A stretch of 39,611 nt of DNA from Bacteroidota bacterium (GTDB taxonomy: Bacteria > Bacteroidota > Ignavibacteria > SZUA-365): the NCBI GenBank assembly GCA_014860565.1, contig JACZJN010000089.1, positions 1 to 39,611 of the forward strand, given 5' to 3'. Under the pieces are notes generated by a model. It was given only the letters and a program-made list of their open reading frames with translations, had not been told where the DNA came from and made no database searches. The translations under genes and the position numbers were made by a program. Numbering within the stretch: the first letter of the stretch is position 1; each line of letters begins with the position of its first letter. Below, in pieces: positions 2,194-18,820 of the stretch.

Positions 2194-2234
2194 CTTAGTT
2201 GGAACTTGGACAAATGATTACTTCCGAGCGCGGT

Positions 2235-2333
2235 ATGACACCCTGGCGTTAAGCTGCGGGCGGTTCTGCCGCGGTTCGCGGCTCTGCACGAACCGTGACA
2301 GAGCCGGCTGTCAGCTTGAACGGCTTGTTAGGC
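2235..2333 (-). other. attC-like integron recombination site 1
   Basis: Read on the minus strand, the site opens with the R'' core GCCTAAC (2327-2333). An inner arm GTTCAAGCTG is answered by CAGCTTAAC (2248-2256): the arms pair except for one extra C in the first, which is the extrahelical base typical of attC. Between them lies a hairpin, GGCTCTG-T-CACG / CGTG-CAGAGCC. The expected closing R' core (GTTRRRY) is degenerate (GTGTCAT at 2235-2241), so the site may be inactive or truncated. The DinB stop codon TAA is inside the R'' core, as usual for a cassette gene. Confidence 0.7.
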
Positions 2334-2834: not shown

Positions 2835-2870
2835 GCTGGCTCCTAATCGAAACTCAACTGGCTGAACTGT

Positions 2871-2877
2871 GCCTAAC
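2871..2877 (-). other. Integron core site GTTAGGC, start of DinB cassette
   Basis: The minus-strand heptamer GTTAGGC matches the GTTRRRY integron crossover consensus exactly and sits 37 bp upstream of the chosen DinB start. No paired R'' box or stem is evident upstream, so it is more likely the crossover point of an attI-type site than of an attC. This fits its place between the integrase remnant (3043-3250) and the first cassette gene. A seven-base match alone is weak; the context gives it weight. Confidence 0.5.
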
Positions 2878-2937
2878 AATAATTAGACGTATCCGCGTAA
2901 CACAACTGCGCGTGCGTTACTGTCCGTATATCACGAA

Positions 2938-2965
2938 TGCATATTCCAACATTCGTATGTGTCAA
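2938..2965 (-). promoter_or_regulatory. Sigma70-like promoter ahead of DinB cassette (possible Pc)
   Basis: On the minus strand TTGACA (2960-2965) is followed after 16 bases by TATGCA (2938-2943). It points at the GTTAGGC boundary and the DinB gene about 60-100 bases downstream. This is where a reverse-oriented integron would carry its cassette promoter. The rest of 2878-3042 is AT-rich with no other feature recognised. The -35 match is perfect and the -10 matches 4 of 6 positions. Confidence 0.5.
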
Positions 2966-3042
2966 GCCGTTTATTTTCATTCTCTTAATCGCGTGTATTT
3001 GGTTTCGTCTTTCGTGTTATAGGGATCAGGACAGCCACATCA

Positions 3043-3250
3043 TCACAGGCCATCCACCGGGCTGCGCACACCCACGAGGCCACGGTTGAGAACATGTGTG
3101 GAGATCATCATCGTCGTGACATCTTTGTGACCCGGAAGTTCCTGGTCGGTCCTGATATCGGAACCGCTCCCCGCGCAATTGCGTGGCGAAGGGATGCCGG
3201 AATGTACGGCAGGTCGCGACGGCGTGGGATGAATTGCTTCATCCTCGAAC
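3043..3250 (-). pseudogene. Integron-type tyrosine recombinase (IntI/XerC-like), C-terminal remnant
   Basis: The last stretch reads [17 protein letters not shown], then [11 protein letters not shown] and [10 protein letters not shown]. This is the C-terminus characteristic of integron integrases (DIRTVQELLGHKDV, MIYTHVLNRG, GVRSP). A neighbouring frame upstream encodes [11 protein letters not shown], the box II R-H region, so at least one frameshift separates the two. The catalytic tyrosine of the IYTH motif is replaced by serine (ISTH). Everything N-terminal is missing or unrecognisable. The remnant is therefore inactive. It is on the same strand as the cassettes, with its 3' end towards them, as in the reverse integrons known from spirochaetes and Chlorobi. 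Confidence 0.75.
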
Positions 3251-3255
3251 TGCTG

Positions 3256-3454
3256 GTGCGAAACAAGAATGGCGAACACGAATGTCCCCGGGGTCGACGG
3301 AACAATCTTGGATTTAAGGCCGCAATATCCGGAATCCTCTCGTCTTTGTCAAGAGATTTTCTCCCGTTTTGTTTGTTCAGCGGGCATGCCCGCACTCGGG
3401 GGCTGCGCCGCGAGCTTCTCCGCCCCCGCCATTGAGTCCTTCAGCTTGAACATT
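3256..3454. repeat. Degenerate, internally deleted copy of the MmcQ locus
   Basis: Bases 3256-3396 align without large gaps to 6321-6461 at roughly 70% identity, including a shared block around gatt(t/c)aaggccgcaat and the palindrome CGGGCATGCCCG. Bases 3402-3454 then align to 6678-6730, inside the MmcQ/YjbR gene. The stretch is thus a diverged duplicate of the 6.3-6.7 kb locus from which about 216 bp have been lost. No intact reading frame survives. Bases 3455-3551 hold nothing recognisable. Confidence 0.7.
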
Positions 3455-3551
3455 TCCCCGCCGCCCTCAGGACTGTGGGTCGAACCCGAAGACGCGTAGC
3501 TCCTGGTCACAACGGCAAACCTTCGCGATGCGCGCGGCCGAAAGTGTATTC

Positions 3552-4094
3552 TCAGCCGCGCGGTTGTTGCGTCGGCTGGAGCGACTGGTCGGACGACATC
3601 CTTTCAATTTTCTTCTGGATAAACCAACAGAACCAGCCATTATACTTTTCCTGCAGCTCCGGCTTCATCCAGTCCTTGCCGGTAATGGTACCCCGACAGT
3701 GCGTACTCCCGCACTTGCATTCCACGACATAGTCCAGGTCATCCGTGGTAGCCCAATCGTGCGTCAGTTCTTCGCCGGGCGAGATATCTCTCATTGCGAC
3801 AAATACAATCTGCCCTTGAATAGCGATATTGGGATCGCAGCAATGGTTGATGTAAAGCATACAACCTTCCCGTTCCTCCCGTCGCGCTGGAGCGATGAAT
3901 AGTTCTTCCGTGACCTGGATCTCCGCCGATCCTATTTCTCTTTCAAGGGCTGACCATTGCTGCGCATGCAGAATGTATCCGCCCTTGATGGCCACAATCT
4001 CTCCTGCCTCGATGGCTTGTTTTGCAAACAATCCTTTCCCGTGAATCGGGCTGTTGCGCACTTCCGTCTTTGGAGAATGAAAACTCAGGTTCAT
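3552..4094 (-). CDS. Small SET-domain protein
   Basis: A 180-residue stand-alone SET protein, the fold of lysine methyltransferases. In order: the N-SET strand SPIHGKGLFAKQAIEAGE, the cofactor-site motif YINHCCDPN (usual form NHSCxPN), GEELTHDW (usual GEELTYDY, here with His for Tyr), and a post-SET CxCG...CRG cluster (ECKCGSTHCRG). Start: ATG at 4094 lies 12 residues before the SET motif and gives a normal N-terminus. The open frame extends back to a TTG at 4181 through a copy of the DUF2200 C-terminus whose stop has become a sense codon, so a longer fusion product is possible. No good ribosome site is visible at 4094. The target is unknown. Confidence 0.75.
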   Translation of the reverse strand: MNLSFHSPKTEVRNSPIHGKGLFAKQAIEAGEIVAIKGGYILHAQQWSALEREIGSAEIQVTEELFIAPARREEREGCMLYINHCCDPNIAIQGQIVFVAMRDISPGEELTHDWATTDDLDYVVECKCGSTHCRGTITGKDWMKPELQEKYNGWFCWFIQKKIERMSSDQSLQPTQQPRG

Positions 4095-4106
4095 CAGGAT
4101 CTTGTC

Positions 4107-4196
4107 GTCCAACGCCGTGTTTGCCTCACCCGCACGCAGAATCTTTTCCATTTTTCGCCCTTTCGCCAATTCATCCACCAAGGTATTCAGATATCT
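4107..4196 (-). repeat. Copy of the 3' end of the DUF2200 gene
   Basis: This 90-bp block matches 5505-5594 at roughly 90%. It contains the last about 24 codons of the DUF2200 gene ([16 protein letters not shown]) plus about 18 bp of its 3' flank. The TAG stop of the parent is GAG here, so the frame reads on into the SET gene. It abuts the chimeric repeat at 4202-4257. Confidence 0.8.
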
Positions 4197-4201
4197 CCGC
4201 T

Positions 4202-4257
4202 GTGAATCGCGCGGTTACCCAGCCCGTCTTTCCTACCACCGAGGAAACCAGCGCGGG
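4202..4257 (-). repeat. Chimeric repeat: ICMT 3' end joined to MmcQ segment
   Basis: Bases 4211-4257 match 10751-10797 with one difference in 47. Read on the minus strand the block encodes the end of an isoprenylcysteine methyltransferase-like protein (PRWFPRW and stop). It then passes into the MmcQ sequence VGKTGWVTARFTAE; bases 4202-4233 match 6626-6657 with one difference. So the same artificial-looking junction occurs twice in the window, here followed by the DUF2200 tail and at 10.7 kb by a TIM-barrel fragment. Confidence 0.8.
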
Positions 4258-4270
4258 TTAATTCGCGCAT

Positions 4271-5275
4271 CTATGAATCCTGGTCGCTCACCCTTCCGAG
4301 CACGCGACAGATTGCCAGACTCACCCATTGTCTCGTCTCTCTTGTCTTGGCATTGTTCACTTCCTTGCCGTTCACATACGTCGCATTCCATAGACCATCT
4401 TCCTCTTGATGGTCAACAAGCCAATCAAGTGCCTCTTCCATTTGCTCGTCCCTTGAGGGGTCGATGAGCGAAATGGAATCGAGTGCTGCGACAAGGTTGT
4501 TCCACCAGAAAGGATATTGAAACCTCACCCAATAGCTTGCTGCTTGGTACGACGTGTACCTATCCGGCCGAAAGAACCTCGACTTCAACAGCTTCGCCGC
4601 CATCCTGGCCGCCTCTGACTTGCTATACCTGCCATGCGCGGCGAAGGCTCGCAGGACCATCCCTGTCCAATTATGGGAAAATGGTTTTGACCGATCAGGC
4701 TCGACGGGTTCCGCATACTCACTTGTCAGTCTGTACATCGTTTCCCTGTCGAAATCGTGAGTAATGATCGGCACCGACCAACCCATATCATTCTGGCGCA
4801 TTGACAGAAGCCACTGGAATCCCTTCTCCATGCGCAGGTCGTCTTCATAACCGGCCTTGATGAGCAGCGACAAAATCGCACCTGTATAGTAGATGGCGTA
4901 CTGATTGGCAATAAAGCCGCGGATGTCTCCATCCTCCGTCTGGCATGAGAAGAGAAACTCGGCTGCCCTCCCGGTAGATGGATCCTCTCGATTGAACCCA
5001 TACTTCTCTACCAGGAACCTGAACTGCTTCCATGTCTCAATCAAGTTGTAGTTGATATCCTTGTGTTTCTTCTTACTGACAGAACGATCCCACGAACCAT
5101 CCGGCTGCTGTTTCTTGAGAGTCTTTTGGGCCTCGGGGAGTTGCCACAGGCGATGAATGGGACCTACCTCCTCATCCAAGAGATCCCGTCTCACAAAGTA
5201 CTGTAGCGCCTCATCTCCAGAGGAAAGAAGCGCGGGTATGGGATCGAACCTCAGTTGTCGCCGCCAGCTATCCAT
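4271..5275 (-). CDS. Prenyltransferase/squalene-cyclase-like alpha-toroid protein
   Basis: A 334-residue, probably cytosolic all-helical protein. It has repeats of the prenyltransferase/squalene oxidase type: QPDGSWDR, FSCQTEDGDIRGF, LLSMRQNDMGWSVP and WLVDHQEEDGLWN, the QW-like motifs of (alpha/alpha) toroids. It is half the length of squalene-hopene cyclase and lacks an obvious DxDD acid motif, so cyclase activity is doubtful. Relatives of this size are widespread in archaea and bacteria and uncharacterised. The start at 5275 (MDSWRRQL) is preceded by a weak GGTGATAGGA site. Just upstream is TTGTTAGCC, one base off an integron core, so this too may have been a cassette. Confidence 0.65.
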   Translation of the reverse strand: MDSWRRQLRFDPIPALLSSGDEALQYFVRRDLLDEEVGPIHRLWQLPEAQKTLKKQQPDGSWDRSVSKKKHKDINYNLIETWKQFRFLVEKYGFNREDPSTGRAAEFLFSCQTEDGDIRGFIANQYAIYYTGAILSLLIKAGYEDDLRMEKGFQWLLSMRQNDMGWSVPIITHDFDRETMYRLTSEYAEPVEPDRSKPFSHNWTGMVLRAFAAHGRYSKSEAARMAAKLLKSRFFRPDRYTSYQAASYWVRFQYPFWWNNLVAALDSISLIDPSRDEQMEEALDWLVDHQEEDGLWNATYVNGKEVNNAKTRETRQWVSLAICRVLGRVSDQDS

Positions 5276-5309
5276 AGTCCTATCACCTTGTGCGCATGCG
5301 GGCTAACAA

Positions 5310-5343
5310 TTCCCGACCTTGAATGCGTTCTGCGTGCACGATG
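5310..5343 (-). repeat. Scrap of the MmcQ/YjbR gene
   Basis: These 34 bases match 6782-6815 with two differences and encode CTQNAFKVGN, equal to the CTQSAFKVGK segment of the MmcQ protein. The rest of 5276-5522 shows no convincing gene; a short frame encoding a hydrophobic LDLALLFLSWWLW stretch is the only other thing noted. Confidence 0.75.
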
Positions 5344-5522
5344 TCGGCGCCAACCGCTCGCACGATGCAAGGCGGCATCTCCCGCCGTTCCTTGTCCGCC
5401 TCGACCACAGCCACCACGAGAGGAACAGCAGCGCAAGATCCAGATGGTCACCCAGACTCGGCATCATCGTCGATCTGACATTTTTGTCGCCCCGTCGCCG
5501 ACGAGTCCCACGCCGTGTTTGC

Positions 5523-5888
5523 CTAACCCGCACGCAGAATCTTTTCCATTTTTCGACCTTTCGCCAATTCATCGACCAACTTATCCAGATATCTGACCTG
5601 CTGCGTTAGCGGGTTCTCGATCTCCTCGACCCGATAGCCGCAGATGACCCCGGTGATGAGATGCGCATTGGGGTTGAGGGTGGCCTGCTGAAAGAATTGT
5701 TCAAACGTCGCCTTTTCTTCGATCTGTTTTTGCAGCATCGCTTCATCGTACCCGGTGAGCCACTGAATCACTTGATGTAATTCATCCGTTGATCGACCTT
5801 TCTTCTCGACTTTTGCAACGTAGTGCGGGTACACCGACGCGAAGGTCATTTTCGCAATTCGTTCATCGTGATGGCTTGTGCTTTTCAT
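5523..5888 (-). CDS. DUF2200 family protein
   Basis: A 121-residue protein matching DUF2200 along its length: [20 protein letters not shown], then a WLTGYDEA motif, [35 protein letters not shown] and the C-terminal [20 protein letters not shown]. Length and domain limits are normal for the family, whose function is unknown. The start at 5888 is preceded by GGAG ten bases upstream. The stop TAG lies inside a GTTAGGC heptamer. Its last about 24 codons and flank are duplicated at 4107-4196, ahead of the SET gene. Confidence 0.8.
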
Positions 5889-5912
5889 ATCTCATTTCTC
5901 CATATCTGTCGG

Positions 5913-6216
5913 TCATGTCATTTTATTCCAGCTTTGGGACGTAGACTCCGCCAACCACGTACTCCGGATACTCTCCGGCAGAGGCTCCTCCGCGGTGACG
6001 GTGAACGGCTGGACCAGCACTTGAAGACCCAACTGCTCTGGAATGGCGCGGCTGTCGTAGTACCCGGTGACGGCGGTTATCCCGTCTGCCCCGATGTCAA
6101 TCACGTCGACGCCCGGGACTGAAATCGCTTGACCGGTCGCCGGCCGTCTTGTAACCACAGAAGCCGCAAGCACCGATGTTGTCGGCATTGGTTTCCACGA
6201 TTTCGTAATCGGTCAT
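5913..6216 (-). pseudogene. Chimera of GNAT-like start, SnoaL-like end and MmcQ tail
   Basis: Three gene pieces are fused. From ATG 6216 the frame reads MTDYEIVETNADNIGACGFC and GYK, resembling the N-terminus of a YoaP-like GNAT acetyltransferase. Near 6142 the similarity moves to another frame, ISVPGVDVIDIGADGI and TGYYDSRAIPEQLGLQVLVQP, the C-terminal end of a SnoaL-like (NTF2-fold) protein. This runs into TAEEPLPESIRSTWLAES, a copy of the MmcQ C-terminus (5941-5998 matches 6571-6629 with one indel). The longest open frame (to 6188) therefore has no family start and is unlikely to be functional. The GNAT assignment is the weakest of the three. Confidence 0.65.
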
Positions 6217-6320
6217 GTTGTGGCTCGGATTGGTGGCGGAACAATGAGTAAGCGTATCCACCAGACACGACGACACGTTCGTTTCCGTCCTTGGAACGCG
6301 AACATTTTTTCCATCCGCTT

Positions 6321-6461
6321 GTGCGAAACAGGAACGGCAGTCACGGACGCTCCCCGAGCCGATGGAGCAGTCCTGGATTCAAGGCCGCAATTTCCTGATT
6401 CATTCCGTGTTTGTCAAGAGATGATTGTCCCGTTTTGTTTGTCCCGCGGGCATGCCCGTAC
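6321..6461. repeat. Parent copy of the 141-bp repeat downstream of MmcQ
   Basis: It aligns to 3256-3396 over its whole length. On the minus strand it contains the palindrome CGGGCATGCCCG and a TTGACA followed by a 20-codon open frame (MNQEIAALNPGLLHRLGERP). I cannot tell whether this is a coding scrap or a regulatory block. It lies 58 bp beyond the MmcQ stop codon. No other gene is seen between 6217 and 6519. Confidence 0.6.
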
Positions 6462-6519
6462 GCATCGGCATCACCCCGTTTTCGCTCTGCTCCCGGAATG
6501 CGGGGACCTCCTCGGCGCT

Positions 6520-6888
6520 TCAGTCGGCCTCGCTGGCATTCGTGGTCACCACGGTTCCGGACGTGATGGCGTAGGACTCCGCCAACCAGTTGCTCCAGAT
6601 ACTCTCCGGCAGCGGCTCCTCCGCGGTGAATCGCGCGGTGACCCAGCCCGTCTTTCCGACCTCGAATCGCGCGGGGTGCTGTCCCGCGAGCTTCTCCGCC
6701 TCCGACATGGAGGCCTTCAGCTTGAAGATTGCCTTGAAACCCAGACCCTTCGGCCCGGGACCAATGAACAGGAAGCTTCCCTTCCCGACCTTGAATGCGC
6801 TCTGTGTGCACGATGCCCCCTCGGATACGCCGGGGAAGCTCAAGGCCTTTCGGCGAATTGCTTCCGTGGGGTCCTTTCGATCGGTCAT
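6520..6888 (-). CDS. MmcQ/YjbR family protein
   Basis: A 122-residue protein of the MmcQ/YjbR family, a CyaY-like fold sometimes described as DNA-binding. It shows the family order: SFPGVSEGASCTQSAFKVGK, then FKAIFKLKA, HPARFEVGKTGWVTARFTAE and the terminal helix ESIWSNWLAESYA. The start at 6888 is preceded by AGGAG at 6-base spacing. It is divergent from the Cys-rich gene at 6963. Pieces of this gene recur at 3402-3454, 4202-4233, 5310-5343, 5941-5998 and 10751-10770, so it is the intact parent of most repeats in the region. Confidence 0.8.
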   Translation of the reverse strand: MTDRKDPTEAIRRKALSFPGVSEGASCTQSAFKVGKGSFLFIGPGPKGLGFKAIFKLKASMSEAEKLAGQHPARFEVGKTGWVTARFTAEEPLPESIWSNWLAESYAITSGTVVTTNASEAD

Positions 6889-6962
6889 GGCCGCTCCTGT
6901 CTTTATTGTCCGCCCGCACTTTCCGCGCAATTCAAATTTCAATCTAACACAACGGAGACACA

Positions 6963-7223
6963 ATGAACGACAACGAGCCCGACGTGAAATTCGTCGACCT
7001 CTACGACGACGATGGCAGGCAGTACAAGCGCGACGAGATCGACATGCTGCCCTGCTGCCAGTCATGCGTCCGTGGGGCGTCAGAAGGCTTCACGGGCGTC
7101 CCGTGCCAGCTGTCATGGCTGGACCAAATGCTGACACCGGAGGACGAACGCGAGCCATTCAGCTGCAACGCGTACGAGAACGAAGGCCTGCAAGAGCGCG
7201 TCGGATTTCGCTGTCAAGCATAG
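6963..7223 (+). CDS. Small cysteine-rich acidic protein
   Basis: An 86-residue protein with no family I recognise. It has seven cysteines, with a CCQSC cluster near residue 31 and further single cysteines at CQLSW, SCNAY and FRCQA. This suggests a metal- or iron-sulphur-binding fold. There is no signal peptide and the protein is rich in Asp and Glu. The start ATG follows CGGAGACACA, a plausible ribosome site. It is one of the few plus-strand genes in the left part and is divergent from the MmcQ gene, with 74 bp between starts. It appears intact. Confidence 0.55.
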   Translation: MNDNEPDVKFVDLYDDDGRQYKRDEIDMLPCCQSCVRGASEGFTGVPCQLSWLDQMLTPEDEREPFSCNAYENEGLQERVGFRCQA

Positions 7224-7543
7224 TTCTGCCCGCAAGAGAAAGCCAGTAAAATCGATTCATCTCACGAACGCGAGACCGTCAATAACAGATGAGACGAAAC
7301 GGTTCCTCATAGATTAACCGTCTATAAGTCGGACGAAATGAGCACACGGAGGATAACGTATTTCGGCGATAATATATTATTATCGACGACTGTCATGTGA
7401 AATTGAGAAATAACAGGCACTTGGTATACAGATAGGGAGTAAAACACCTGCTATTTTTTTACCAGGGAATGAATTCCTCTTGCGTCTGCTGAAGCGGTTT
7501 TTTAACAAGAGTCCTGCTCGGATTTGCAGATTCCGCGGCACAA
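7224..7543. other. AT-richer gap without a recognised gene
   Basis: The base composition drops sharply here compared with the flanks. No coding frame with family similarity is seen. The frame of the following gene opens after a TGA at 7490-7492 and has no ATG before 7570, suggesting that the left border of an inserted, truncated segment lies in this gap. Confidence 0.4.
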
Positions 7544-8293
7544 TTGATCTACAATAATCTTGACAATTCAATGGATAGTGTAGATATTGGGATTAAGTTG
7601 CTCGGCTTGAGATCGGCATATCTTTTGTACAACGACGCGATTGCGCGTGACACACTGCGAAAATATGCGTTTGAGCCGTTCGATCCTGGAGTCTCTGTAG
7701 ATTTTATCATGAGCACTGCAGTGACAAACCTTGTGATGGCTGAAGTTCTGCTTGATAATGTAGAAGGTGCAGTTCAAACTATGGACAGTGTTATCTATCG
7801 AGAGGTCCCAGACCGCATGCGAGTCCATTATCTCGCAAAGAAGGCCGAATTGCTCATGAAAAGCACTGGGGACTCATCATACATTGCTACCATCGACAGT
7901 TTACTGTACCTGTATCCTACTGACAATGCGGTACTTAACTCGAAGTACATAGTTACCGGCGATGCATCCTATACCACGTGGTACTCTAAACGAATCGGGC
8001 AAGATTCCAGAAACGTCATTCCTAACACTATCGCAATCACTGCGTACCCGTCGCCTGCATCGGCTGTTCAGACTATCACAATCACAAACCTCAAAGTCAT
8101 ATCAAATGTTGCTATTTACGATTATTTAGGTCGAAAGGTAGACAAATCACGTTACGACTATAGCGTGGCGGGTGACAATATTTACTTTTCGTACAATATC
8201 AGCAGCGGTATATATCTTCTGGTAATAACGACTCCGGATCATAGATACAGCAACAAGTTCGTTATTAATACAATTGGAAGCCTATCTAGATGA
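7544..8293 (+). CDS. T9SS-sorted protein, N-terminally truncated
   Basis: The C-terminus is a type A T9SS sorting domain: it runs from ITAYPSPASAVQTITI through a VAIYDYLGRKVD motif to GIYLLVITTPDHRYSNKFVI. Proteins with this domain cross the outer membrane by T9SS and need a Sec signal peptide. None is present: the frame opens with a TTG at 7544 (an ATG at 7570 is the next choice) and no leader precedes it. The gene is therefore probably a fragment whose 5' end was lost. It overlaps the next gene by 4 bp (ATGA). Codon use is much more AT-rich than in neighbouring genes. Confidence 0.6.
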   Translation: MIYNNLDNSMDSVDIGIKLLGLRSAYLLYNDAIARDTLRKYAFEPFDPGVSVDFIMSTAVTNLVMAEVLLDNVEGAVQTMDSVIYREVPDRMRVHYLAKKAELLMKSTGDSSYIATIDSLLYLYPTDNAVLNSKYIVTGDASYTTWYSKRIGQDSRNVIPNTIAITAYPSPASAVQTITITNLKVISNVAIYDYLGRKVDKSRYDYSVAGDNIYFSYNISSGIYLLVITTPDHRYSNKFVINTIGSLSR

Positions 8294-9639
8294 ATGGATC
8301 AACGAGCCATTTCAGTTTTCTCCGTTCCATTCGTGAGCACCACTGCATTGAAAATGCATTTAGCATACTTATTTGCATCATTTGTGTGTTCGGCATTGCT
8401 GCACCTCCAAGCGAGGCGCAGCAATGCTACATACAGACCGAAGATCTTGCGTATGGCAGCTGGTTCGTTCGCGCCGTTTCAGACTCGACATGCCTTGGTC
8501 ATTATTTTGATAAAATCTGTTATGCTAACTACAAGACTCAAGAGATCTATTTCATCTTTAAAAGTGCTGATTTCTTTGGCCTCGAAAGCCCGTTACAAGA
8601 AAAAGTTTACGATATATTGATGTTCGATTCGCTTCTCGTTGTAAATTGGGAAAACGGGTTAGTTTTCAGAATACTTAGGGTAAACGCTGATTCGCAGATC
8701 ACCGAAATTCCATCAATACTCGACCACATGCCACTATTGAAATTCGATTTCTTATCTCGGGGGCAATATTTTGATTTAAGGAAACTCCGGAAGGTTAATG
8801 ACAGTATTTTATTGGTGACTAATCGCGAGACACTTTACAGCTTTAATTTGGCTGGCAATAACGTTCGTTGCATTGATTCACTTCCACTCCATGATCCTGT
8901 ACTAGGCGGCGATCGCTTTGACGCACGAGGTGACACTTTAGTGATTCTTGCCATTCCAGAAAGTCACGCAGTGTTTTATCATATCACTTTCGATGGTTTC
9001 TTTCGAAACCTTGGAGTACAAAACATCGACCATGAACTATTTTATAGGGCAAAGGTCTATTATGGCCATGGTAACATTTATTTGCAAAACAGCAATCTAC
9101 ACGTATTGACTAGAACCGACTCTGGGTTCACATATAGGGAAGGTCCGCACTATAGTTCCCCTTTAGATCTTCTTATTCTACCTAATACTGTTGCGCAACT
9201 TGACATGTCAAATTGGGAACGAATCGACATTTACACTCCTGAACTTGATACAATTTGCAGTATGCCAGAGGCCACCTCGCTTACCGTGCTTTTCGTTTCT
9301 AACTACGGTGACAAAATTTTTATCGCACGTTCTAATGGAATACATACTTTCATCCCAGATACGACAACCTTATTCATCGGGACAGAAGGCGATGTCAATG
9401 AAACTGTTACCCTTTGGCCCAACCCATCTACAGATGGAATTTTTAACGTCTCAAGCAACGAGGCAATCTCTCGGGTTGTCGTGACGGACATGCTGGGTCG
9501 CATCGTCCATACGGCCTCTGGCCCTTTCATGAATACTGCAACCCTCGCGCCTACCGGACTAACTCGAGGTACATATTTCGTATCCGTGCAGTTGGGACGT
9601 TCTATTGTCAGAAAGAGACTCACGGTCGCCTCATATTGA
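8290..9639 (+). CDS. Secreted T9SS-sorted protein, beta-propeller-like
   Basis: A 449-residue protein with a signal segment late in the N-terminus (AFSILICIICVFGIAAPPSEA, cleavage near EA-QQ). A long middle has repeated beta-rich units reminiscent of a beta propeller, but no family match. It ends in a T9SS type A sorting domain (WPNPSTDGIFNVSS, VVVTDMLGRIV, LTRGTYFVSVQLG). It starts in an ATGA overlap with the preceding gene, so translation may be coupled; the first about 20 residues before the hydrophobic segment are unusually long, and a later start is possible. It is a likely cell-surface or secreted protein of unknown role. Confidence 0.7.
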   Translation: MNGSTSHFSFLRSIREHHCIENAFSILICIICVFGIAAPPSEAQQCYIQTEDLAYGSWFVRAVSDSTCLGHYFDKICYANYKTQEIYFIFKSADFFGLESPLQEKVYDILMFDSLLVVNWENGLVFRILRVNADSQITEIPSILDHMPLLKFDFLSRGQYFDLRKLRKVNDSILLVTNRETLYSFNLAGNNVRCIDSLPLHDPVLGGDRFDARGDTLVILAIPESHAVFYHITFDGFFRNLGVQNIDHELFYRAKVYYGHGNIYLQNSNLHVLTRTDSGFTYREGPHYSSPLDLLILPNTVAQLDMSNWERIDIYTPELDTICSMPEATSLTVLFVSNYGDKIFIARSNGIHTFIPDTTTLFIGTEGDVNETVTLWPNPSTDGIFNVSSNEAISRVVVTDMLGRIVHTASGPFMNTATLAPTGLTRGTYFVSVQLGRSIVRKRLTVASY

Positions 9640-9708
9640 CACCGCTCTACGCCTCGTCATTCGGTCAGGCCCTGTAATAACTCTGCAGAAATTTCAGTGA
9701 GACTCAAA

Positions 9709-9885
9709 TTAAGGCTCCTCACAAGAATTTGTGATGTAATTCGGGCATTTCCAGCCATTCCACTCGGATCGATCGCGGACGAACACATCCAGCAGCTGAT
9801 TCATTCCGTTCCAACAGGCCAAGTGCAGTTTGAACTGCTCAGGCGTGGCTATTGGTAACAGTTGTGGCAGGAGGAGATTCATCAT
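9709..9885 (-). CDS. 58-residue cassette protein, unassigned
   Basis: This ORF begins with an ATG five bases after the R' core of an attC site (9890-9949); the AGGA of that core sits at ribosome-site distance. The protein reads MMNLLLPQLLPIATP, then EQFKLHLACWNGMNQLLDVF and VRDRSEWNGWK, ending in a short Cys-containing tail. The VFVRDRSEWNGW segment recalls the N-terminal part of some GIY-YIG-related proteins, but I would not assign it. It may be a truncated larger gene: a GCCTGAC heptamer lies 39 bp beyond the stop, followed directly by the end of the T9SS gene. It is shorter than most ORF cut-offs. Confidence 0.45.
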   Translation of the reverse strand: MMNLLLPQLLPIATPEQFKLHLACWNGMNQLLDVFVRDRSEWNGWKCPNYITNSCEEP

Positions 9886-9889
9886 TCAG

Positions 9890-9949
9890 TCCTAACGCTC
9901 GGCATCAGCGGAGGTGCGCAGTGACGTCCGCTGCATGCGAAGGTTGGGC
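9890..9949 (-). other. attC site 2 (60 bp, all four boxes)
   Basis: On the minus strand the R'' core GCCCAAC (9943-9949) matches RYYYAAC, and the R' end GTTAGGA (9890-9896) matches GTTRRRY at six of seven positions. Between them GCATGCAGCGGA is answered by TCCGCTGATGC; the two pair fully except for one extrahelical G. A short 14-base loop completes the fold. The length and arrangement are those of the classic 59-base element. The TIM-barrel fragment lies upstream and the 58-codon ORF follows immediately. Confidence 0.85.
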
Positions 9950-10065: not shown

Positions 10066-10740
10066 TCATGGTTTCAACGACCTCAAGTAAGGTACCACCG
10101 CCTCGCTCCAGTACGGTTCCTCGGTTCCCCAGAACAGGTAGTCGAGGTGCAGCGGGTCGCGGGCGTAGGCGGCCAGTTCCTCCGGCAGCGACTCGCCGGG
10201 CATGAAGTTCGCGTAGATCAGCAGGTCGGACTTCCTGAACGCCGCGCGCGCGGACCGCATCAAGTCGCGCATCGCCTCGTAGTACGCCGCCGGCGTGTAC
10301 CCTTCCGGAGGTTCGCCGGCGGAGTCGAAGCCGATCGAGGTCTCAGCGAAGTTGATCCCTGCGATCTTCCCGTCGAACTCGGCGGCCAACGCCTGGAAGA
10401 GCGCGGCCAATCGCGCCCGCACCGCCGGATCCCAACGCCGCGGTACCCAGGCGTCGAAGGCGACGCGACTCTGGTCGTTGTCAGGATGAAAGTACTGTGC
10501 GGCGACTCCGCCGTGGAATTCGGGTTGAGCGAGCAAGTAGTCGGGGACATTGGGGCGCGCCTCGACGAACGAGACGTCCTGGAGTTGGATAAAAAGGCGT
10601 TTGCCCCGCCGCTCAAGGACGGCGAGGTCGTGGCGGATCGCCGACAAGTCGTAGTCGCCCCGCCGCGGTTCGAGCTCGGTCCAGCGGTACTTGAGCTGGG
10701 CGCCGACCAGCGCGGCGGTTTCGACAAATGCCTCCTCCGT
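10066..10740 (-). pseudogene. TIM-barrel glycosidase-like protein, 5' end replaced
   Basis: From about residue TAALVGAQLKYRWTELEPRR the frame resembles a TIM-barrel glycoside-hydrolase-like protein. The segment WTELEPRRGDYDLSAIRHDL is a typical strand-loop of such barrels, followed by LFIQLQDVSF, KIAGINFAETSIGFDS and a terminal LHLDYLFWGTEEPYWSEAV. No natural start or signal peptide exists: upstream, the frame runs into the ICMT/MmcQ repeat at 10751-10797 and the attC at 10897, giving a nonsense N-terminus if translated from 10947. The gene has thus lost its beginning at a recombination junction. Family membership is by fold impression only. Confidence 0.55.
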
Positions 10741-10750
10741 GGCGATTCTC

Positions 10751-10797
10751 GCGGATACCCAGCCCGTCTTTCCTACCACCGAGGAAACCAGCGCGGG
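10751..10797 (-). repeat. Second copy of the ICMT/MmcQ chimeric repeat
   Basis: It matches 4211-4257 at 46 of 47 positions. It carries the ICMT stop region and continues into VGKTGWVSARIATEE, an MmcQ-derived stretch, before changing into the TIM-barrel frame near 10740. Confidence 0.85.
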
Positions 10798-10896
10798 ACA
10801 TCCTGCTTGTATTGCTGGTATGTGGTTCCGAACCGCCGTTCGAGGCCCTTCTCCTCGATCAATGGAATAGAGAGAAAATTCCCGATGACGAAGATG
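10773..10896 (-). pseudogene. Isoprenylcysteine methyltransferase-like C-terminal fragment
   Basis: The 41 codons before the stop read TIFVIGNFLSIPLIEEKGLE, RRFGTTYQQYKQDVPRWFP and RW. This is the conserved C-terminus of the bacterial ICMT/PEMT-type membrane methyltransferases (EEpGLerrFGe-Y-YkrhVPRwiPR). The fragment begins right at the R' core of the attC at 10897-10983, and all membrane helices before it are missing. Its last bases are shared with 4234-4257. Confidence 0.75.
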
Positions 10897-10983
10897 GTCG
10901 AACGTTGCGCGTAACCGGCTGCTACAAGCGGCGGAGCGGAGCGGCACCGCAGTCGGCAGACCGAGTTGACGCGATTGTCAGAC
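10897..10983 (-). other. attC site 3 (87 bp)
   Basis: Minus strand: R'' GTCTGAC (10977-10983, one base off RYYYAAC) and R' GTTCGAC (10897-10903, one base off GTTRRRY). The inner arms CGCGTCAACTCGG and CCGGTTACGCG pair completely except for two unpaired bases in the first, again the extrahelical-base pattern. The stop codon TGA of the DUF1801 gene is part of the R'' box, as for the DinB gene and site 1. Confidence 0.75.
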
Positions 10984-11406
10984 GTGTGTTCGTTCCATAC
11001 CATCCTGGATTGCAGCCTTCAGAATATCCAGGTTAATATTCTTGAGCGCCTTGAACTTGATGCAATACCCTGTGATGCTCGCCTTTCCGATCGCGGGCGC
11101 GTACTTTTCCTGCAGATAGTTCTTATCGTTCATTCCCATGATGTACACCGACAGACCCGCTGAATTCGCACTGATACCTATCCGATAAAATTCTTTGGTT
11201 TTCCCATCGGCGTATTTTTTGCTCAGCGTGCCATACCCGATGTTTGGGTTGGATACAACTTTGCCGCTCTCGTCCTTGCCGTCGAGAAACCAAAGTTTGC
11301 AACCTGGGTTCATCTCCAGAATAGCGCCGTGGAGTCTCCGCATGTCTGTTTGTTTGGGCTCTGGTATCGATTCGAGATAGCGATCGATCGGATCATCTAC
11401 TGCCAT
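10978..11406 (-). CDS. DUF1801 family protein
   Basis: A 142-residue protein of the DUF1801 (YdhG/YjhX-like) superfamily. It shows the opening DDPIDRYLESIPEPKQTDMR, RLHGAILEMNPGCKLWF, the central NPNIGYGTL and a C-terminal helix ALKNINLDILKAAIQDGM. The family has no established biochemical role. The start at 11406 is well supported by CCGGAGG seven bases upstream. Its 3' end merges into attC site 3, so it is probably an integron cassette gene. Confidence 0.8.
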   Translation of the reverse strand: MAVDDPIDRYLESIPEPKQTDMRRLHGAILEMNPGCKLWFLDGKDESGKVVSNPNIGYGTLSKKYADGKTKEFYRIGISANSAGLSVYIMGMNDKNYLQEKYAPAIGKASITGYCIKFKALKNINLDILKAAIQDGMERTHV

Positions 11407-11653
11407 TGCATGCCTCCGGGGAAATTGGTCATCAGCCTACCGCCGCGCCGAGCCGCGGCGGTAAGGCATCAGCGTGCCGATGTGCCCGCTGGGCATCAGA
11501 CCCTTGAGGCGAATCGGCCCCAGGCCGAGCAGTCGCTTCGCCATGAACTCTCGAGCGCGCAGGAGCGAAACCCGCTTCCAGGTCCACAGGGGCAGGCGCG
11601 GACGCTACGGGGCGTTGCCAGGCGGGGCAGCACGCAGGCGACGCCTTGGTCTG
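11407..11653. other. Gap with a strong palindrome
   Basis: No gene is recognised. Bases 11435-11467 form a near-perfect inverted repeat (GCCT-ACCGCCGCG / CGCGGCGGT-AAGGC). It ends in GGTAGGC-like heptamers on both strands and may be a decayed recombination site or a transcription stop. A short basic minus-strand frame beginning MAKRLLGLGPIRLKGLMPSG lies above it, without family match or ribosome site. Confidence 0.4.
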
Positions 11654-12115
11654 CTATGCGTCATCGTATGCTTTTTCCAGCGCCGCCACGTCGAGCTTGA
11701 CCATCTTCAGCATCGCGTCCATCACCGCCTGTACCTTCTTCTGGTTTATGTCGCTGATGAGTTCCATGAAACGTCTCGGGACGATCTGCCAGGTGACGCC
11801 GAACGGATCGGTGATCCAACCGCACTGCGAAGGGGTTGCGCCGGCGCCGATCAGTTTGTTCCAGTACTCGTCGACTTCTTCCTGGTTTTCGCAGTCGACA
11901 AAGAGCGAGAACCCTTCGGAGAATGTGAAGTACGGACCGCCATTGTACCCCATGAAGGACTGACCACCGATGACGAATTCGGCGGAAGTGATCGGGCCGT
12001 CCTCGCCGGTACGAGCGATGTTCCTGATCTCTGAGTCCGGGAATGTGGCGGTGTAAAACGCCATGGCAGCTTCGAGCTGGTCATTGAACATCAGGAAAGG
12101 TGTCACTTTGTTCAT
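11654..12115 (-). CDS. PhnB-like VOC family protein
   Basis: A 153-residue member of the PhnB/3-demethylubiquinone-methyltransferase-like branch of the vicinal-oxygen-chelate superfamily. Hallmarks are the start VTPFLMFNDQLEAAMAFY, FPDSEIRNI, GPITSAEFVIGGQSFMGYN, the glutamate-bearing strand CGWITDPFGVTWQIVPR and the C-terminal helix QKKVQAVMDAMLKMVKLD, which in this branch is characteristic. The start at 12115 follows AAAGGAG at good spacing. The function of this branch is not established. Two segments of this gene are re-used in the chimera at 18600-18815. Confidence 0.8.
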   Translation of the reverse strand: MNKVTPFLMFNDQLEAAMAFYTATFPDSEIRNIARTGEDGPITSAEFVIGGQSFMGYNGGPYFTFSEGFSLFVDCENQEEVDEYWNKLIGAGATPSQCGWITDPFGVTWQIVPRRFMELISDINQKKVQAVMDAMLKMVKLDVAALEKAYDDA

Positions 12116-12233
12116 TTGTATGTCTCCTTTGTTATTAATCTCCGTGGTACGCTCGAATTTCGTCGCGCCGCGATGCGCGCGACCGACCGCCTGCCGCTCG
12201 CCTTCGGGCACGACCATCGCAGCGCTGGGAAAA

Positions 12234-12293
12234 TGGCCGAAACCTTCGATGACCACCGACATTGATTCCTCTCAGGAAGACGACAAGTGCCAT
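12234..12293 (-). pseudogene. DUF1697 N-terminal scrap
   Basis: Twenty codons from ATG 12293 read MALVVFLRGINVGGHRRFRP, the characteristic N-terminus of DUF1697 proteins (about 180 residues). After that the frame has no similarity and stops at the start of the VOC leader. It lies 11 bp downstream of the RES toxin stop. Confidence 0.7.
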
Positions 12294-12304
12294 GACAGAC
12301 GGCC

Positions 12305-12775
12305 TCAATAGTCCGTTTTCAGCAGGCGGGGATCGAAGTGAAACTGCCGGGCCTCTCCGATCGTGATTTCGGGAAAAGCGGGATGCCGCGGATTGAGAAG
12401 GAAAACCCTCTCGATGGGAACGACCGCGCTGGGTACCGCCAGCACGACCGAGGATGCATCGGCGATCCATTGCGTTCCCAGAGCGCGGGTCGAGAGAGGG
12501 GCGGGATCGTCCGACCAATCCGGCGGCAGCTCCGCCTGCGACAGTTGCCGGCACAACGTTTCGTCGAAGCTGACCGGTATGCTCTGATACTTCTGAAGGA
12601 TGTTCGGACCCGGAAGGTGGACGAGCATTTCCAACGCGGCCAATGCAAGCGATCCGGCGGTGTACACAACGGGAGTACCGCGTTCATTCCATCGACCGGG
12701 ATACTGGCTTGCGCCCTGTCCGTCGAATGCCGTTTGAAGATGGCGTGACTGAACGATCCTCCATGCGGTGATCAT
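12305..12775 (-). CDS. RES-domain toxin (NAD+-degrading)
   Basis: A 156-residue RES-domain protein, the toxin of the Xre-RES toxin-antitoxin type. Known members deplete cellular NAD+ by glycohydrolase or phosphorylase activity. The conserved elements are present: WRIVQSRH near the start, the RES arginine-glycine motif YPGRWNERGTPVVYTAGSLA, LALAALEMLVHL and the closing FLLNPRHPAFPEITIGEAR with FHFDPRL. The start ATG 12775 shares a base with the antitoxin stop (TGATG); a GTG one codon earlier is an alternative. It is cotranscribed with the antitoxin. Confidence 0.85.
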   Translation of the reverse strand: MITAWRIVQSRHLQTAFDGQGASQYPGRWNERGTPVVYTAGSLALAALEMLVHLPGPNILQKYQSIPVSFDETLCRQLSQAELPPDWSDDPAPLSTRALGTQWIADASSVVLAVPSAVVPIERVFLLNPRHPAFPEITIGEARQFHFDPRLLKTDY

Positions 12776-13206
12776 CACGAAAAGACTCCGTGCTCCAGTC
12801 TGCCGAGGATATCCTCGACCTCGCGCGCACCGGGTTCGGTCTCGGTATAATCGAGCGGCGCGTGTCCGTGCAGCGTTCGCAGCGGTTCATTGAACCAGCG
12901 TCTCGCCGTGTCGATGTCGCCGAATACCTCGACGGCGATGTCAAAAAGCGCGGAGATTCGGAATACGCGTTCGGATTCATCCGGCTGGAGCACGCCCTCG
13001 CGTTTTCGCCGCGCGAAGGTTCGCGGCGCGATACCGGCAGCCGCCGTCAGGCGCTGCGGAGAAAGGTCCATGGCCTCGCACAAATGCTCGAATTCCTCGA
13101 TCGTCAGTCCCGCTTTCAGCCGGTCGATGACCGCGGCCGTGTTGCGTAGCTTCAGACCGAGGGATTTCCCCCGTGATTTTCGGTGCTTCGGATTCGCTGT
13201 GGACAT
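12775..13206 (-). CDS. Xre/MbcA/ParS-type antitoxin
   Basis: A 143-residue antitoxin partner of the RES toxin. The N-terminal half holds a helix-turn-helix (LSPQRLTAAAGIAPRTFARR), and the C-terminal half is the DUF2384 toxin-binding domain (RVFRISALFDIAVEVFGDID and ARRWFNEPLRTLHGHAPLDY). The start ATG 13206 is preceded by CAGGAG at 7-base spacing; the 17 codons upstream in frame lie in the promoter. It is expected to bind its own promoter, which carries an inverted repeat over the -10 element. Confidence 0.85.
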   Translation of the reverse strand: MSTANPKHRKSRGKSLGLKLRNTAAVIDRLKAGLTIEEFEHLCEAMDLSPQRLTAAAGIAPRTFARRKREGVLQPDESERVFRISALFDIAVEVFGDIDTARRWFNEPLRTLHGHAPLDYTETEPGAREVEDILGRLEHGVFS

Positions 13207-13221
13207 GCGTTTCTCCTGATC

Positions 13222-13267
13222 ATGCCAAAGTGCAGAGTAAAGTACGCCATTTGGCATTCCGTGTCAA
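13222..13267 (-). promoter_or_regulatory. Promoter and operator of the Xre-RES operon
   Basis: Minus strand: TTGACA (13262-13267), a 17-base spacer and TACTTT (13239-13244). Two 8-bp arms ATGCCAAA / TTTGGCAT (13222-13229 and 13250-13257) flank the -10 element symmetrically, a classic autorepression operator for the helix-turn-helix antitoxin. Confidence 0.75.
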
Positions 13268-13324
13268 CCCATTTTCCGATCGTCGCGCAGCCTGCGAGCG
13301 GTCCGGTTGATCGAATTGTCAGGC
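13262..13324 (-). other. attC-like half site 4
   Basis: The minus-strand sequence from GCCTGAC (13318-13324) through AATTCGATCAACCGG closely parallels the start of attC site 3 (GTCTGACAAT...GTCAAC). It contains the HigA stop codon TGA within the core box. An answering GGTTGA occurs at 13264-13269, but no clear R' core follows; the sequence there has become the -35 region of the Xre-RES promoter. It is read as the left half of a decayed attC. Confidence 0.5.
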
Positions 13325-13579
13325 GGCATGGAGAGTCTTGATCCCTGCCACTTCCGCTTTCATCTCTTTTGAGGCATCCCACAGGTCTACAGCCCGTTGG
13401 GCGTTGAGCCAGAACTCGGGCGAATTTCCAAACAGCTTCCCCAAGCGGAGCGCCATCTCCGGACTCACGGCCCGTCGCTCACGAATCAATTCGTATACCG
13501 TTTGCCGCGACACACCCAGTGCATCGGCCAAACCTGATGGTGTCAAACCGTAGTCGGACAGAAAGTCCTCTCGTAGCAT
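13319..13579 (-). CDS. higA: HigA-type antitoxin, without its toxin
   Basis: An 86-residue HigA-family antitoxin. It contains the helix-turn-helix ADALGVSRQTVYELIRERRA and the family motif SPEMALRLGKLFGNSPEFWL, followed by NAQRAVDLWDA. The usual N-terminus (RPIPPVHPGEMLREDFL) is cut: the protein begins directly at MLREDFL. No HigB/RelE-type toxin lies on either side; upstream on the same strand is the SWIM gene, 15 bp away. It may be an orphan cassette antitoxin or the remainder of a module. Confidence 0.75.
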   Translation of the reverse strand: MLREDFLSDYGLTPSGLADALGVSRQTVYELIRERRAVSPEMALRLGKLFGNSPEFWLNAQRAVDLWDASKEMKAEVAGIKTLHAA

Positions 13580-13594
13580 CCCTCGCAGCCGCCG

Positions 13595-14464
13595 TCACTC
13601 GCTTTGGCTCTGCTCCCAGAAGGCGGTGAATTCCTCGGCGGTCGCGGCGGCCTGGCGGTGAATGCCGGCCAGGGTCTCGGCGAAGGGACGCGCTGCGCGC
13701 CAGAACGAGGGCGCTCCGAGCGCGGATATGATGGAAGCCGCCGGGTCGATGTCTGAAGGGAGCGGGGAAGCAAGCGCATCGGACCTGCTCCAGAATTGTT
13801 CGGGGTCGGCGGGGAGCGGGGGACCCTGCTGCCGCGGCGGGGCCTCCGCGACGCGGCGCACGGCGGCGGTCTGGAGTTGCGAAAGCAGCTGCGCGCGATC
13901 CATGCCCCGCAGGCGCAGGAGCAGGAACGGATCGTCGTCGAAGGCCTCGGCGAGGAGATAATACACGGCGGCTATGTGCTTGCAGGGATTCGACCAGTCG
14001 GGACAGCTGCAGTCCGTAATCAGATCGCTGTCGGTGCGCGGAAAAAGCGACAACCCCTTTTCCGCCACGATGGCGTCGAGCGCTTCGGGCATCTCGCCGC
14101 GCAGCAAGGCCGCGACTTCGATCGGCATCCTGCGGAGACGACGGACGATGCCCTGCCATTCCTCGGCGGTGAACGCGCGAAGACGGATGCTGACCTTGTA
14201 CGGCGTGCGCCTTGTCCCCTGCACGCGCGCGCGTACCTCGCCCGCGCCGATGACCAGGTCGGCCACCTGTCCGCCGCGTGCGTAGGATTTCCCGCGTCCC
14301 AGACGCGCACCGATGTTGAAGGACTCGAGCGTCCGCACCCATTTGCGTCCCCACCAGGTGCCGCCGAAGCCGCCGCGCTGCGATTTCGCGCGAATACCGC
14401 CCTGTACCGGGAGCGGCTCGGCGGGCGTGTAATGCCACCAGGGATCGTCGTAGTATTTGCTCAT
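13595..14464 (-). CDS. SWIM zinc-finger protein
   Basis: A 289-residue protein with a SWIM zinc finger CxCx6CxH (C152, C154, C161 and H163 in CSCPDWSNPCKH). The N-terminal part is typical of SNF2-linked SWIM proteins (FGGTWWGRKWVRTLESFN, RGGQVADLVIGAGEVRARVQ). It sits 51 bp downstream of the SNF2 helicase gene on the same strand, the standard pairing in bacteria, and the two products presumably act together on DNA or nucleoprotein. The C-terminus after residue about 230 is low in similarity. The start at 14464 (MSKYYDDPWWHYTP) is normal for the family. Confidence 0.85.
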   Translation of the reverse strand: MSKYYDDPWWHYTPAEPLPVQGGIRAKSQRGGFGGTWWGRKWVRTLESFNIGARLGRGKSYARGGQVADLVIGAGEVRARVQGTRRTPYKVSIRLRAFTAEEWQGIVRRLRRMPIEVAALLRGEMPEALDAIVAEKGLSLFPRTDSDLITDCSCPDWSNPCKHIAAVYYLLAEAFDDDPFLLLRLRGMDRAQLLSQLQTAAVRRVAEAPPRQQGPPLPADPEQFWSRSDALASPLPSDIDPAASIISALGAPSFWRAARPFAETLAGIHRQAAATAEEFTAFWEQSQSE

Positions 14465-14515
14465 CGCGCTCGTCCTTGTCCGATGATCAATGCGCTGCTT
14501 TCCGCCGTGGACATG

Positions 14516-17500
14516 TCAATCCTCCGCGGCCGTGGCGTCCTCGCCCAGGCGGACGAGTTCGAGGAAATTCCGATCCGTCATCTCCGTCAACCACTGCTCC
14601 CCGCTCCCCACGACGCTGTCCGCGAGTTCACGCTTTCGTTCGAGTAGTTCGTCGATGCGCTCCTCGAGCGTGCCCGCGACGATGAAGGTGTGCACCTGCA
14701 CGTTTTTCTTCTGTCCGATGCGGAAGGCGCGGTCGGTCGCCTGGTTTTCCACGGCGGGATTCCACCAACGATCGTAATGCACGACGTGATTGGCGCGGGT
14801 GAGCGTGAGTCCGGTCCCCCCCGCCTTCACCGAGAGGATGAATACCGTGGGCGCGGCGGCGTCGGACTGGAAACGCTCGACCATCGCGTCCCGCCGTTTG
14901 CGCGGCACCCCGCCGTGAATGAAGAATACCTCCTCGGTGAAATGTTCCTGCAGCGCCTGCTGGAGCAGCAGTCCCATCTCCATGTACTGGGTGAAGACGA
15001 GGACGTGCTCGCCGCGCCGGCGGATATCCGCGACGATTTCCATGAGCCGCCGGAGTTTCCCCGAACGATGCCGCCACTCGGAGCCATCGCCGAGGAACTG
15101 CGCGGGATGGTTGCAGATCTGTTTGAGACGGAGGAGTGTGGCGAGAATCAGTCCCCGGCGCTGCATTCCTTCCTTCTCTCCGATGCCGGCGGCGAGATTG
15201 CGCACCACCGCTTCATACAGCGTGGCCTGTTCCTTCGTGAGGGGGCAGTACTCCTTCTGCACGATCTTGTCCGGTAAATCGGATATAATGGTCTTGTCCG
15301 TTTTTTCCCGTCGCAGCACGAAAGGCGCGGTGATGCGGCGCAGCTGTGCTGCGGCGCCGCCGTCTCCCCATCGTTGAATCGGAATCTGATAACGGTCGCG
15401 GAATGCGGTATGGTTGCCGAGGAAACCGGGGTTGAGGAATTCCATCAATGCCCACAGGTCGCCCACGCTGTTCTCGACCGGCGTGCCGGTCAGAGCAAAC
15501 CGGTAATCCGCCGTGAGACCGCGTGCCGCGCGGGACTGTTTCGTCTCATGGTTTTTGATATTCTGCGCCTCGTCGAGAATCACTCCCGCCCAGGAAATAC
15601 GTCGCAGATGCTCCACGTCACGGTGCAGCAGGCCGTAACTCGACACCACCATGTGGCTGCGCTTTGCTTCGCTGACGAAGGACTTCTCGCGATGACGCTC
15701 GGGTCCGTGATGTACCATCACCTTCAATGCGGGCGTGAAACGCGCGGCCTCGCGCACCCAGTTGCTCACGACGGTGGTGGGACAGATCAGCAGCACCGGA
15801 CGTCGTTCGCCCGCCGCGCGATCGCGTTCGATCATGGCGAGGGCCTGCACGGTTTTTCCGAGTCCCATGTCGTCGGCGAGACAGGCGCCGAAACCCCATT
15901 GCCGCAGAAAAGCGAGCCAGGAATATCCCCGGAGCTGATAGGGCCGCAGCGTGCCGTTGAAACGCTTCGGCGCGTCGAGCATCTCGAGCCGCTCGCTCCC
16001 CGACAGCTTCGCGGCAAGGTCGGCGATCCACCCCTCCAGCGTGGCGCCGGCGACCGGGAGTCCGTCGATCGTGCGTCCGCTGCCGAGCGACAGCTGCAGC
16101 GCCTCGCGCGCGGTGATGCGTGACGTCGCGTGTTTCTCCATGAGCGCGATGGCGGAGCGGAGTTCATCCTGGTCGATATGCGTCCATTGTCCTCGCAACA
16201 GCACCAGCTGCGATTTCATATCCGCGAGCGCAAGGAGTTCCTCGATTCCCACGCGTTCGTCGCCGATGGAGGCGGAGATATTGTAATCCAGCAGCGCGTC
16301 GAGGGAGAACGCAGACGGGGCGTCCGTTTCCGGGGCCGTGACCTGCGCGCGCAGCGCCACCCGTCGCCGCGCCCCCTGTCGGCTCCACCACCTCGGATAG
16401 AAGATTTCGAAGCCGGACTGCTCGAGCAGCACGGCGTACTCGCGGAGGAAGGCGATGACGTCGTTTCCCTCGAGCGGCATGCCGGTGGGACGCGCGCCCC
16501 GGAGACTCGTCTTCAGCGCGGGATACACCGCCGCGGCCTGCGCCGGCGCGATCAGCAGGAATTCGGTGAGCTGGGGTCCGAACGACTGCAGACGCTGCGC
16601 GGCCTTGCTCCGCGAACGCCAGACCTGGGACAGCGAGAGGAGCAGACTCGGATCGTCGCGGGGTCGTACCAGGAATTCCAGATACCATTCTCCGTTATCC
16701 TGTGCTTCCCCATCAGGTTCCCGCAAACGCAGACCGAAGACGAACGGCGACATGGTGGAGAGTTCCAGCGGCCGTTTCCAGCGGTCGAGTTCCGCGGCGA
16801 ATGCCGCGATCTCGCGTTCGGTCGTCCAGCGCACGACCGCGTCCTTCGCCGTCAGCGCCTCGATCCATGCGTCGTGAAGCGTCGGAAGCTGCTTCCGCTT
16901 CCGGGAAGCGGGTTCCTCGTTGATCTCCAACGGATCGCGCAGGAGCGCATCGACGATTGCATCGAGCAGTCTGTCGAGCAGCAATCCCGGCGAAATCATC
17001 GGCGCCTCCGCTTCGGGAAGCGCCAGGCAGCGAACGACCGCCGGCATGGGCTTCTCCAGCGCGAGCCGCCGGGTGCGGTCCGTTGCATCGATCACCGGCC
17101 GCCACCGCGCTGTCCATTCGGCATTTTCCTGCACGAGGCAGGGGAGGACCCGCCGGCGCCGGACGAGTTCCATGCCGAAGCGCAGCAGCTGCATCGCCCA
17201 GTGCAGGGATTCCCCGATGAGCATGCCGGGCGGCCGCTGATCCGGGTTCATCGCCATGGTGGCGAACTGGAGGAATTCCTCGAACGGCATGCGACGCGCT
17301 ATGACGGGGACGGGAAGCAGGGTGGGAACGCCGGTGAGGGATGTTCGCGAGCCGAGCAGCGGCGATGAAGGCAGCACCGTACGGCCGGCTGCGGGAAGCC
17401 AGGCCGTGCATTTCATGCAATCCCGTCGCGTCGTTTCCGTTCCGGCCAGCAGGTCGTCCAGAGCTTCGGCCAGCGGTTTCATTGCCGTGGGAAATCCATG

Positions 17501-18815: not shown

Positions 18816-18820
18816 CCGTG

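Follow-up and report, generated by a model that had tools for sequence, protein, structure and literature searches.

The window, that is, the whole stretch of 39,611 nucleotides that was analyzed here, contains a group of integron features, all of which are read on the minus strand. The feature under study is an attC site of 60 bp at positions 9890–9949, hereafter attC2, which was recognized by its R''/L''/L'/R' boxes, by covariance models and by stem counts. Read from 9949 to 9890, it runs from the R'' box GCCCAAC (9943–9949) through a spacer, the L'' box GCATGCAGCGGA, the L' box CCGCTGATGC and the spacer CGAGC to the R' box GTTAGGA (9890–9896), and its recombinogenic (bottom) strand is the plus strand. 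The R'' box fits RYYYAAC, and the R' box fits GTTRRRY at six of seven positions, the last base being A and not Y. The first-pass annotation had described four attC boxes and a single extrahelical G; all of them are present, and the G (GCAT[G]CAG) occupies a position that is kept as the extrahelical base across the 60-bp family described below, being G in nearly all members and A or C in a few. Cassette genes flank attC2, both on the minus strand, with a decayed gene at 10066–10895 upstream and a fragment of a GIY-YIG gene downstream. No Rfam family matches attC2, and attC models therefore had to be built. Three were made, all without the window sequence: R1, a model of the 60-bp attC family; R2, a model trained on 23 diverse attCs, taken both from class 1 integrons of plasmids and from environmental arrays; and R3, which excludes that 60-bp family together with its close relatives.

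Cassette genes and integrase debris

The gene at 10066–10895 lies between attC2 and a second site and was identified by tblastn as a homologue of hypothetical proteins of about 350 amino acids. Compared with a 350-aa homologue, residues 64–244 and 309–342 are present, residues 245–308 are missing and the 5' end is foreign; within this 5' part, 10735–10797 duplicates 4195–4257. The second site, attC1 (10897–10983), is a degenerate attC of 87 bp with R'' GTCTGAC and R' GTTCGAC, and its scores in the window are individually modest (R2, 23.6 bits, E 2.7e-4; R3, 22.3 bits, E 4.4e-4). It was unreported in the window search with filters off and in the whole-genome search, in which 150 candidates were scored; in the former case this is probably owing to a limit on hit length. 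Its R'' box contains the TGA stop of an upstream DUF1801-like cassette gene (ORF at 10978–11406), which thus ends inside attC1 and matches Pfam DUF1801 at E 0.0013, below the curated cut-off. attC1 and attC2 both lie within about 1.1 kb, 0.95 kb apart. Just upstream of this cassette debris, on the same strand, is a complete-looking pair of a RES-domain toxin and an Xre/MbcA/ParS antitoxin (12305–13257).

Further debris is found about 6 kb away from attC2. A pseudogene at 3046–3217 is a C-terminal remnant of the integron integrase IntI, comprising about 55 residues in two frames (TIGR02249, 44.4 bits, E 3.9e-11); by tblastn it shares 76% identity over 41 amino acids with the IntI of an intact relative, plus 14 residues in another frame, and it lies on the same strand as the cassettes. 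A GTTAGGC core at 2871–2877, seen in the pattern listing and in the sequence, stands between this remnant and a DinB-family cassette gene (2328–2834; Pfam DinB_2, E 6.9e-16), and by its position it may be attI-like. The stop codon of the DinB gene is embedded in an R''-type GCCTAAC box (2327–2333). A half attC at 3551–3581, consisting of L'', apical part and L' only, lies at the 3' end of a SET-domain gene (3552–4181); its scores in the window are again individually modest (R2, 17.1 bits, E 0.015; R3, 17.8 bits, E 0.0077), and it is the second-best R2 match of the whole genome. Apart from this half site, no further attC was found at 2150–7600 or 11000–14600. About 3 kb with two type-IX-secretion-tailed genes separates the integrase scrap from attC2, and a search for the T9SS gene at 8290–9639 as a conserved synteny flank gave only distant homologues in one member of the 60-bp family.

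In its make-up the cassette region resembles a scrambled mosaic. Short direct duplications of 78–94% identity occur at 3252–3457, 4107–4257, 5310–5343, 5505–5594, 5940–5998, 6317–6461, 6570–6733, 6782–6815 and 10732–10797, and most of these dispersed copies are pieces of sequence found at about 6.3–6.9 kb. Through one of them the tail of a DUF2200 gene is linked to the beginning of the SET gene, and another contributes to the 5' end of the 10066–10947 ORF. Direct duplications are also found outside the attC region, namely 17404–17505 with 18715–18816 and 11687–11767 with 18602–18682 (81–102 bp, 90–94% identity).

Identity, family and decay of attC2

In the window attC2 scores 51.1 bits with R1 (E 2.9e-12) and 38.8 bits with the independent R3 (E 1.2e-8), and with R2 it reaches an E-value of 4e-9; it is the top match of both R1 and R2 in the whole 4.75-Mb genome, in which no other DNA-level copy of it was found. 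The attC at 9890–9949 that had been proposed from the letters alone is thus upheld, with its sequence in place and with covariance scores far above noise even in a model that lacks its own subfamily. Many of the training attCs were chosen partly by folding, and their pair counts are therefore no independent proof of structure, as opposed to the score of the window. The 58-codon ORF on the minus strand (9885–9709) implies that attC2 should be read on that strand too, and the orientation is fixed by R1, since the opposite reading on the plus strand (R'' TCCTAAC ... R' GTTGGGC) yields 13.4 bits against 51.1. Single-strand folding, which had been suggested as a further check, proved less useful: the z-scores of the hairpin are unremarkable (−0.66 on the minus and −1.47 on the plus strand) and a comparable hairpin arose in 7 of 60 shuffles, so that folding does not discriminate and was rejected as proof of an attC. 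A rule-based scan for this shape gave a single match in the window against a mean of 0.17 in shuffles, and simple-rule palindrome scans return many false shapes. The folding shape alone is weak evidence, and it is sequence together with structure that is decisive. An unremarkable folding energy would suit a chance inverted repeat or another palindrome such as a terminator or a REP-like element, but this explanation is next to impossible given that models excluding the family of attC2 still give E 1e-8, that near-identical attCs adjoin cassette genes elsewhere and that no terminator T-run follows the site.

These near-identical sites were reached through same-class genomes carrying a full integron integrase, among which Candidatus Kapabacteria KatS3mg040 (G039) has two 60-bp attCs that match attC2 gaplessly and adjoin an intact IntI of the same orientation. 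When 391 members of the class were searched with a pattern, attC2-type sites turned up in four genomes, and the reversed control gave no match; the pattern was derived from the window and KatS3mg040, so that the independent matches are those of G016 and G022. A scan of about 85,000 species genomes then recovered near-identical sites in 47 other contigs labelled as some 13 phyla, including Planctomycetota, Acidobacteriota, Chloroflexota, Nitrospirota, Gemmatimonadota, Spirochaetota, Proteobacteria and others, and three of these occur in related Ignavibacteria/Kapabacteria. Loss of the arms among relatives had been named as a possible refutation; instead, the arms are conserved across these contigs. 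Most of the 47 are metagenome bins, many carry more attCs nearby, and the distance from R' to the following ORF is often no more than a few tens of bases; no viral contig contained the pattern. Like attC2, the attCs of Kapabacteria KatS3mg040, Bacteroidia HBSIN02 and Ignavibacteriales CG07 (L086, L110 and L070) are 60 bp long and align with it gaplessly, with identical or near-identical L boxes and the extrahelical base in the same position. Unlike attC2, they have six of six apical pairs, AACA or AACG as the 5' spacer and no R' box ending in A.

Several related loci showed features of their own. In two members of the 60-bp family (L087, 5164–5224; L101, 7898–7958) the 5' spacer, GCTCA, is mirrored by TGAGC on the 3' side, and the result is a near-perfect palindrome without an unpaired spacer. 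In KatS3mg040 (L032, G039:C1, 1088–3418) two adjacent cassettes encode identical 375-aa proteins with attCs one base apart, that is, a recent cassette duplication, and another same-class genome (G044; L033, C7:2000–21900) has a long array of Vibrio-repeat-like attCs of about 155–159 bp near an intact integrase.

Compared with this family, attC2 is decaying in its centre while its recognition boxes are intact. The L stem keeps all 10 of its pairs, and the R boxes pair at five of seven positions as written and at six of seven on the bottom strand through a G-T wobble. Of the six apical pairs only two remain, although 36 of 40 relatives keep all six and none has fewer than four. The 5' spacer is CTTC against AACA/AACG in relatives; 11 of 30 pattern-free columns differ from the consensus (at most 9, with a mean of 3.8, in relatives), and the predicted stability of the bottom strand is −14.9 kcal/mol as compared with a mean of −24.0. 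The short loop noticed earlier is visible, but it is what is left of an apical stem that in relatives has 6 bp and a 3-nt loop. The description of attC2 as near-textbook must likewise be abandoned, because it scores 41.5 bits with R2 against 68–76 in most intact relatives, its apical stem and 5' spacer being decayed. Judging from the intact R and L stems, attC2 could probably still be recombined by IntI supplied in trans.

The short ORF behind attC2

The ORF behind attC2 (9709–9885, 58 codons) had been taken as an overlooked small cassette gene that starts five bases past R'. Its first ATG (9885) in fact lies 4 nt past R', and the second ATG (9882), 7 nt past, is better supported and is the likely start, since it aligns with the start of the intact homologues and thereby defines a natural ORF of 57 codons. 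The arrangement AGGA-7nt-ATG also gives a better Shine-Dalgarno spacing than the first ATG, and it is plausible that the AGGA of the core would serve as ribosome-binding site, although for a broken gene this has no clear consequence.

A search for homologues of the 58-residue protein led to longer proteins. Residues 2–46 (9748–9882) match the N-terminus of longer plasmid-encoded proteins (tblastn, E 4e-10 and 2e-7), one of which is annotated as a GIY-YIG nuclease family protein, and the N-terminal 46 residues are 49–54% identical to these plasmid-borne homologues. All homologues examined are full-length open frames of 269–281 amino acids, and one of them, a third intact frame of 281 aa from another member of the phylum, likewise runs on beyond residue 46. 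Their GIY-YIG part begins, by family match, at about residue 170. When the intact homologues were searched back against the window, only 9748–9882 matched; homology ends at residue 46 (about 9748), the catalytic GIY-YIG domain is absent from the ORF, and residues 47–58 are unrelated sequence with no match. No repeat was found at the breakpoint (9640–9760), which is single copy, and the stretches examined around the intact GIY-YIG genes, on two plasmids and in one genome, contain no attC. On these alignments the ORF is the first 46 or so codons, about one sixth, of a broken GIY-YIG nuclease-family gene.

If the ORF instead encoded a small cassette protein that is complete and functional, with the AGGA in the core of attC2 as its ribosome site, this would explain why it is closed and begins 4–7 nt past R' with a good ribosome-site spacing, and cassette ORFs do often start close to R'. 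Nevertheless, residues 2–46 are collinear with the start of GIY-YIG proteins of about 270 residues that run more than 200 residues further, the last 12 residues match nothing, and the short form occurs in none of 149 other genomes of the class and none of 395 of the phylum, which makes such a protein very improbable. A GIY-YIG cassette has been reported in an Aeromonas integron (PMC10609294). With the cassette proteins of this nuclease family the ORF shares the N-terminal 46 residues without the catalytic GIY-YIG region, and the likeness to the Aeromonas cassette is at the family level. A truncated long gene can thus appear as a short ORF behind an attC, which calls for caution when cassette arrays are mined for small ORFs.

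Remains of an integron and their wider setting

IntI recombines the folded bottom strand of an attC in the R box. With a probability that we put at roughly 0.88, attC2 is a real attC in the remains of an inverted-integrase chromosomal integron, now a static CALIN with two attCs, and the ORF behind it is a truncated GIY-YIG cassette gene. Cassettes and integrase would once all have stood on the minus strand, as in the "inverted" integrase type, and the single bottom strand of each attC (the plus strand here) would have folded and been cut by IntI in the R box, leading to insertion, shuffling and excision of cassettes. Later, IntI would have been reduced to a frameshifted C-terminal scrap, cassettes would have been truncated or internally deleted, and half of one attC would have gone; the rest of the GIY-YIG gene, with its own attC, would have been lost at about 9748. 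With only a scrap of IntI, damaged cassettes and a half-lost attC, the array appears to be static in this cell, presumably frozen by the loss of intI. A single array is our inferred source of the two attCs, the half attC and the integrase scrap, although, with two type-IX-secretion-tailed genes in the roughly 3 kb between them, the scrap and attC2 may not have shared it.

The main alternative is that the array is still active and that attC2 still recombines by means of an intact IntI that lies in an assembly gap or at another place in the genome. The stems retained by attC2 and the intact IntI of related genomes would allow for this, and the assembly is fragmented (223 contigs, 97.8% complete), so that an intact IntI could lie in a gap. 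Yet no IntI-like protein above the curated cut-off was found in this assembly, a specific match to IntI comes from the broken remnant at 3046–3217 alone, and the neighbouring cassettes are damaged; continued activity is accordingly unlikely, and a static relic remains our preferred reading.

As for classification, a complete integron has a functional intI with attI, of which only the frameshifted C-terminal remnant is seen here, and a CALIN has at least two attCs and no intact integrase, as is the case for attC2 (E 1e-8) together with attC1 (E 4e-4, a modest value). The term CALIN denotes a cluster of attC sites lacking an integron integrase (IntegronFinder 2.0, PMC9024848) and SALIN a single attC without integrase (PMC9229058). 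Like these elements, the locus combines attCs (two in this case) and adjacent cassette genes with no functional integrase; unlike them, it has an integrase scrap about 6 kb away on the same contig, and it therefore suggests that an integron decayed where it stood, and not only that a cassette was inserted at a secondary site. Inverted-integrase chromosomal integrons are known from the IntI clade of Treponema, Chlorobium and Blastopirellula (PMC3607928; PMC8352920), and the IntI remnant and cassettes on one strand resemble both these integrons and KatS3mg040. In Treponema phagedenis the loss of the integron left attCs and cassettes behind (PMC3607928), much as in the window. The differences from these cases are that the host is a Bacteroidota of the Ignavibacteria/Kapabacteria type and that a piece of intI is still visible. 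Complete integrons were already known in Ignavibacteriae and Chlorobi (PMC9024848); the relic is a known kind of system, an ordinary fossil and not a new small protein.

The point most worth following lies outside the window, namely what causes the uniformity of the 60-bp attC across so many assigned phyla. Misbinned metagenome contigs would account for part of the spread. A more tentative idea, which we consider possible but rather doubtful, is that a uniform 60-bp attC across about a dozen phyla is the mark of a shared environmental cassette pool, of which this lineage kept a fossil. The cross-phylum family would be useful for tracing cassette exchange, and the locus itself documents the decay of an integron in an Ignavibacteria/Kapabacteria-type lineage, with the integrase scrap, the half attC and the truncated cassettes still readable.
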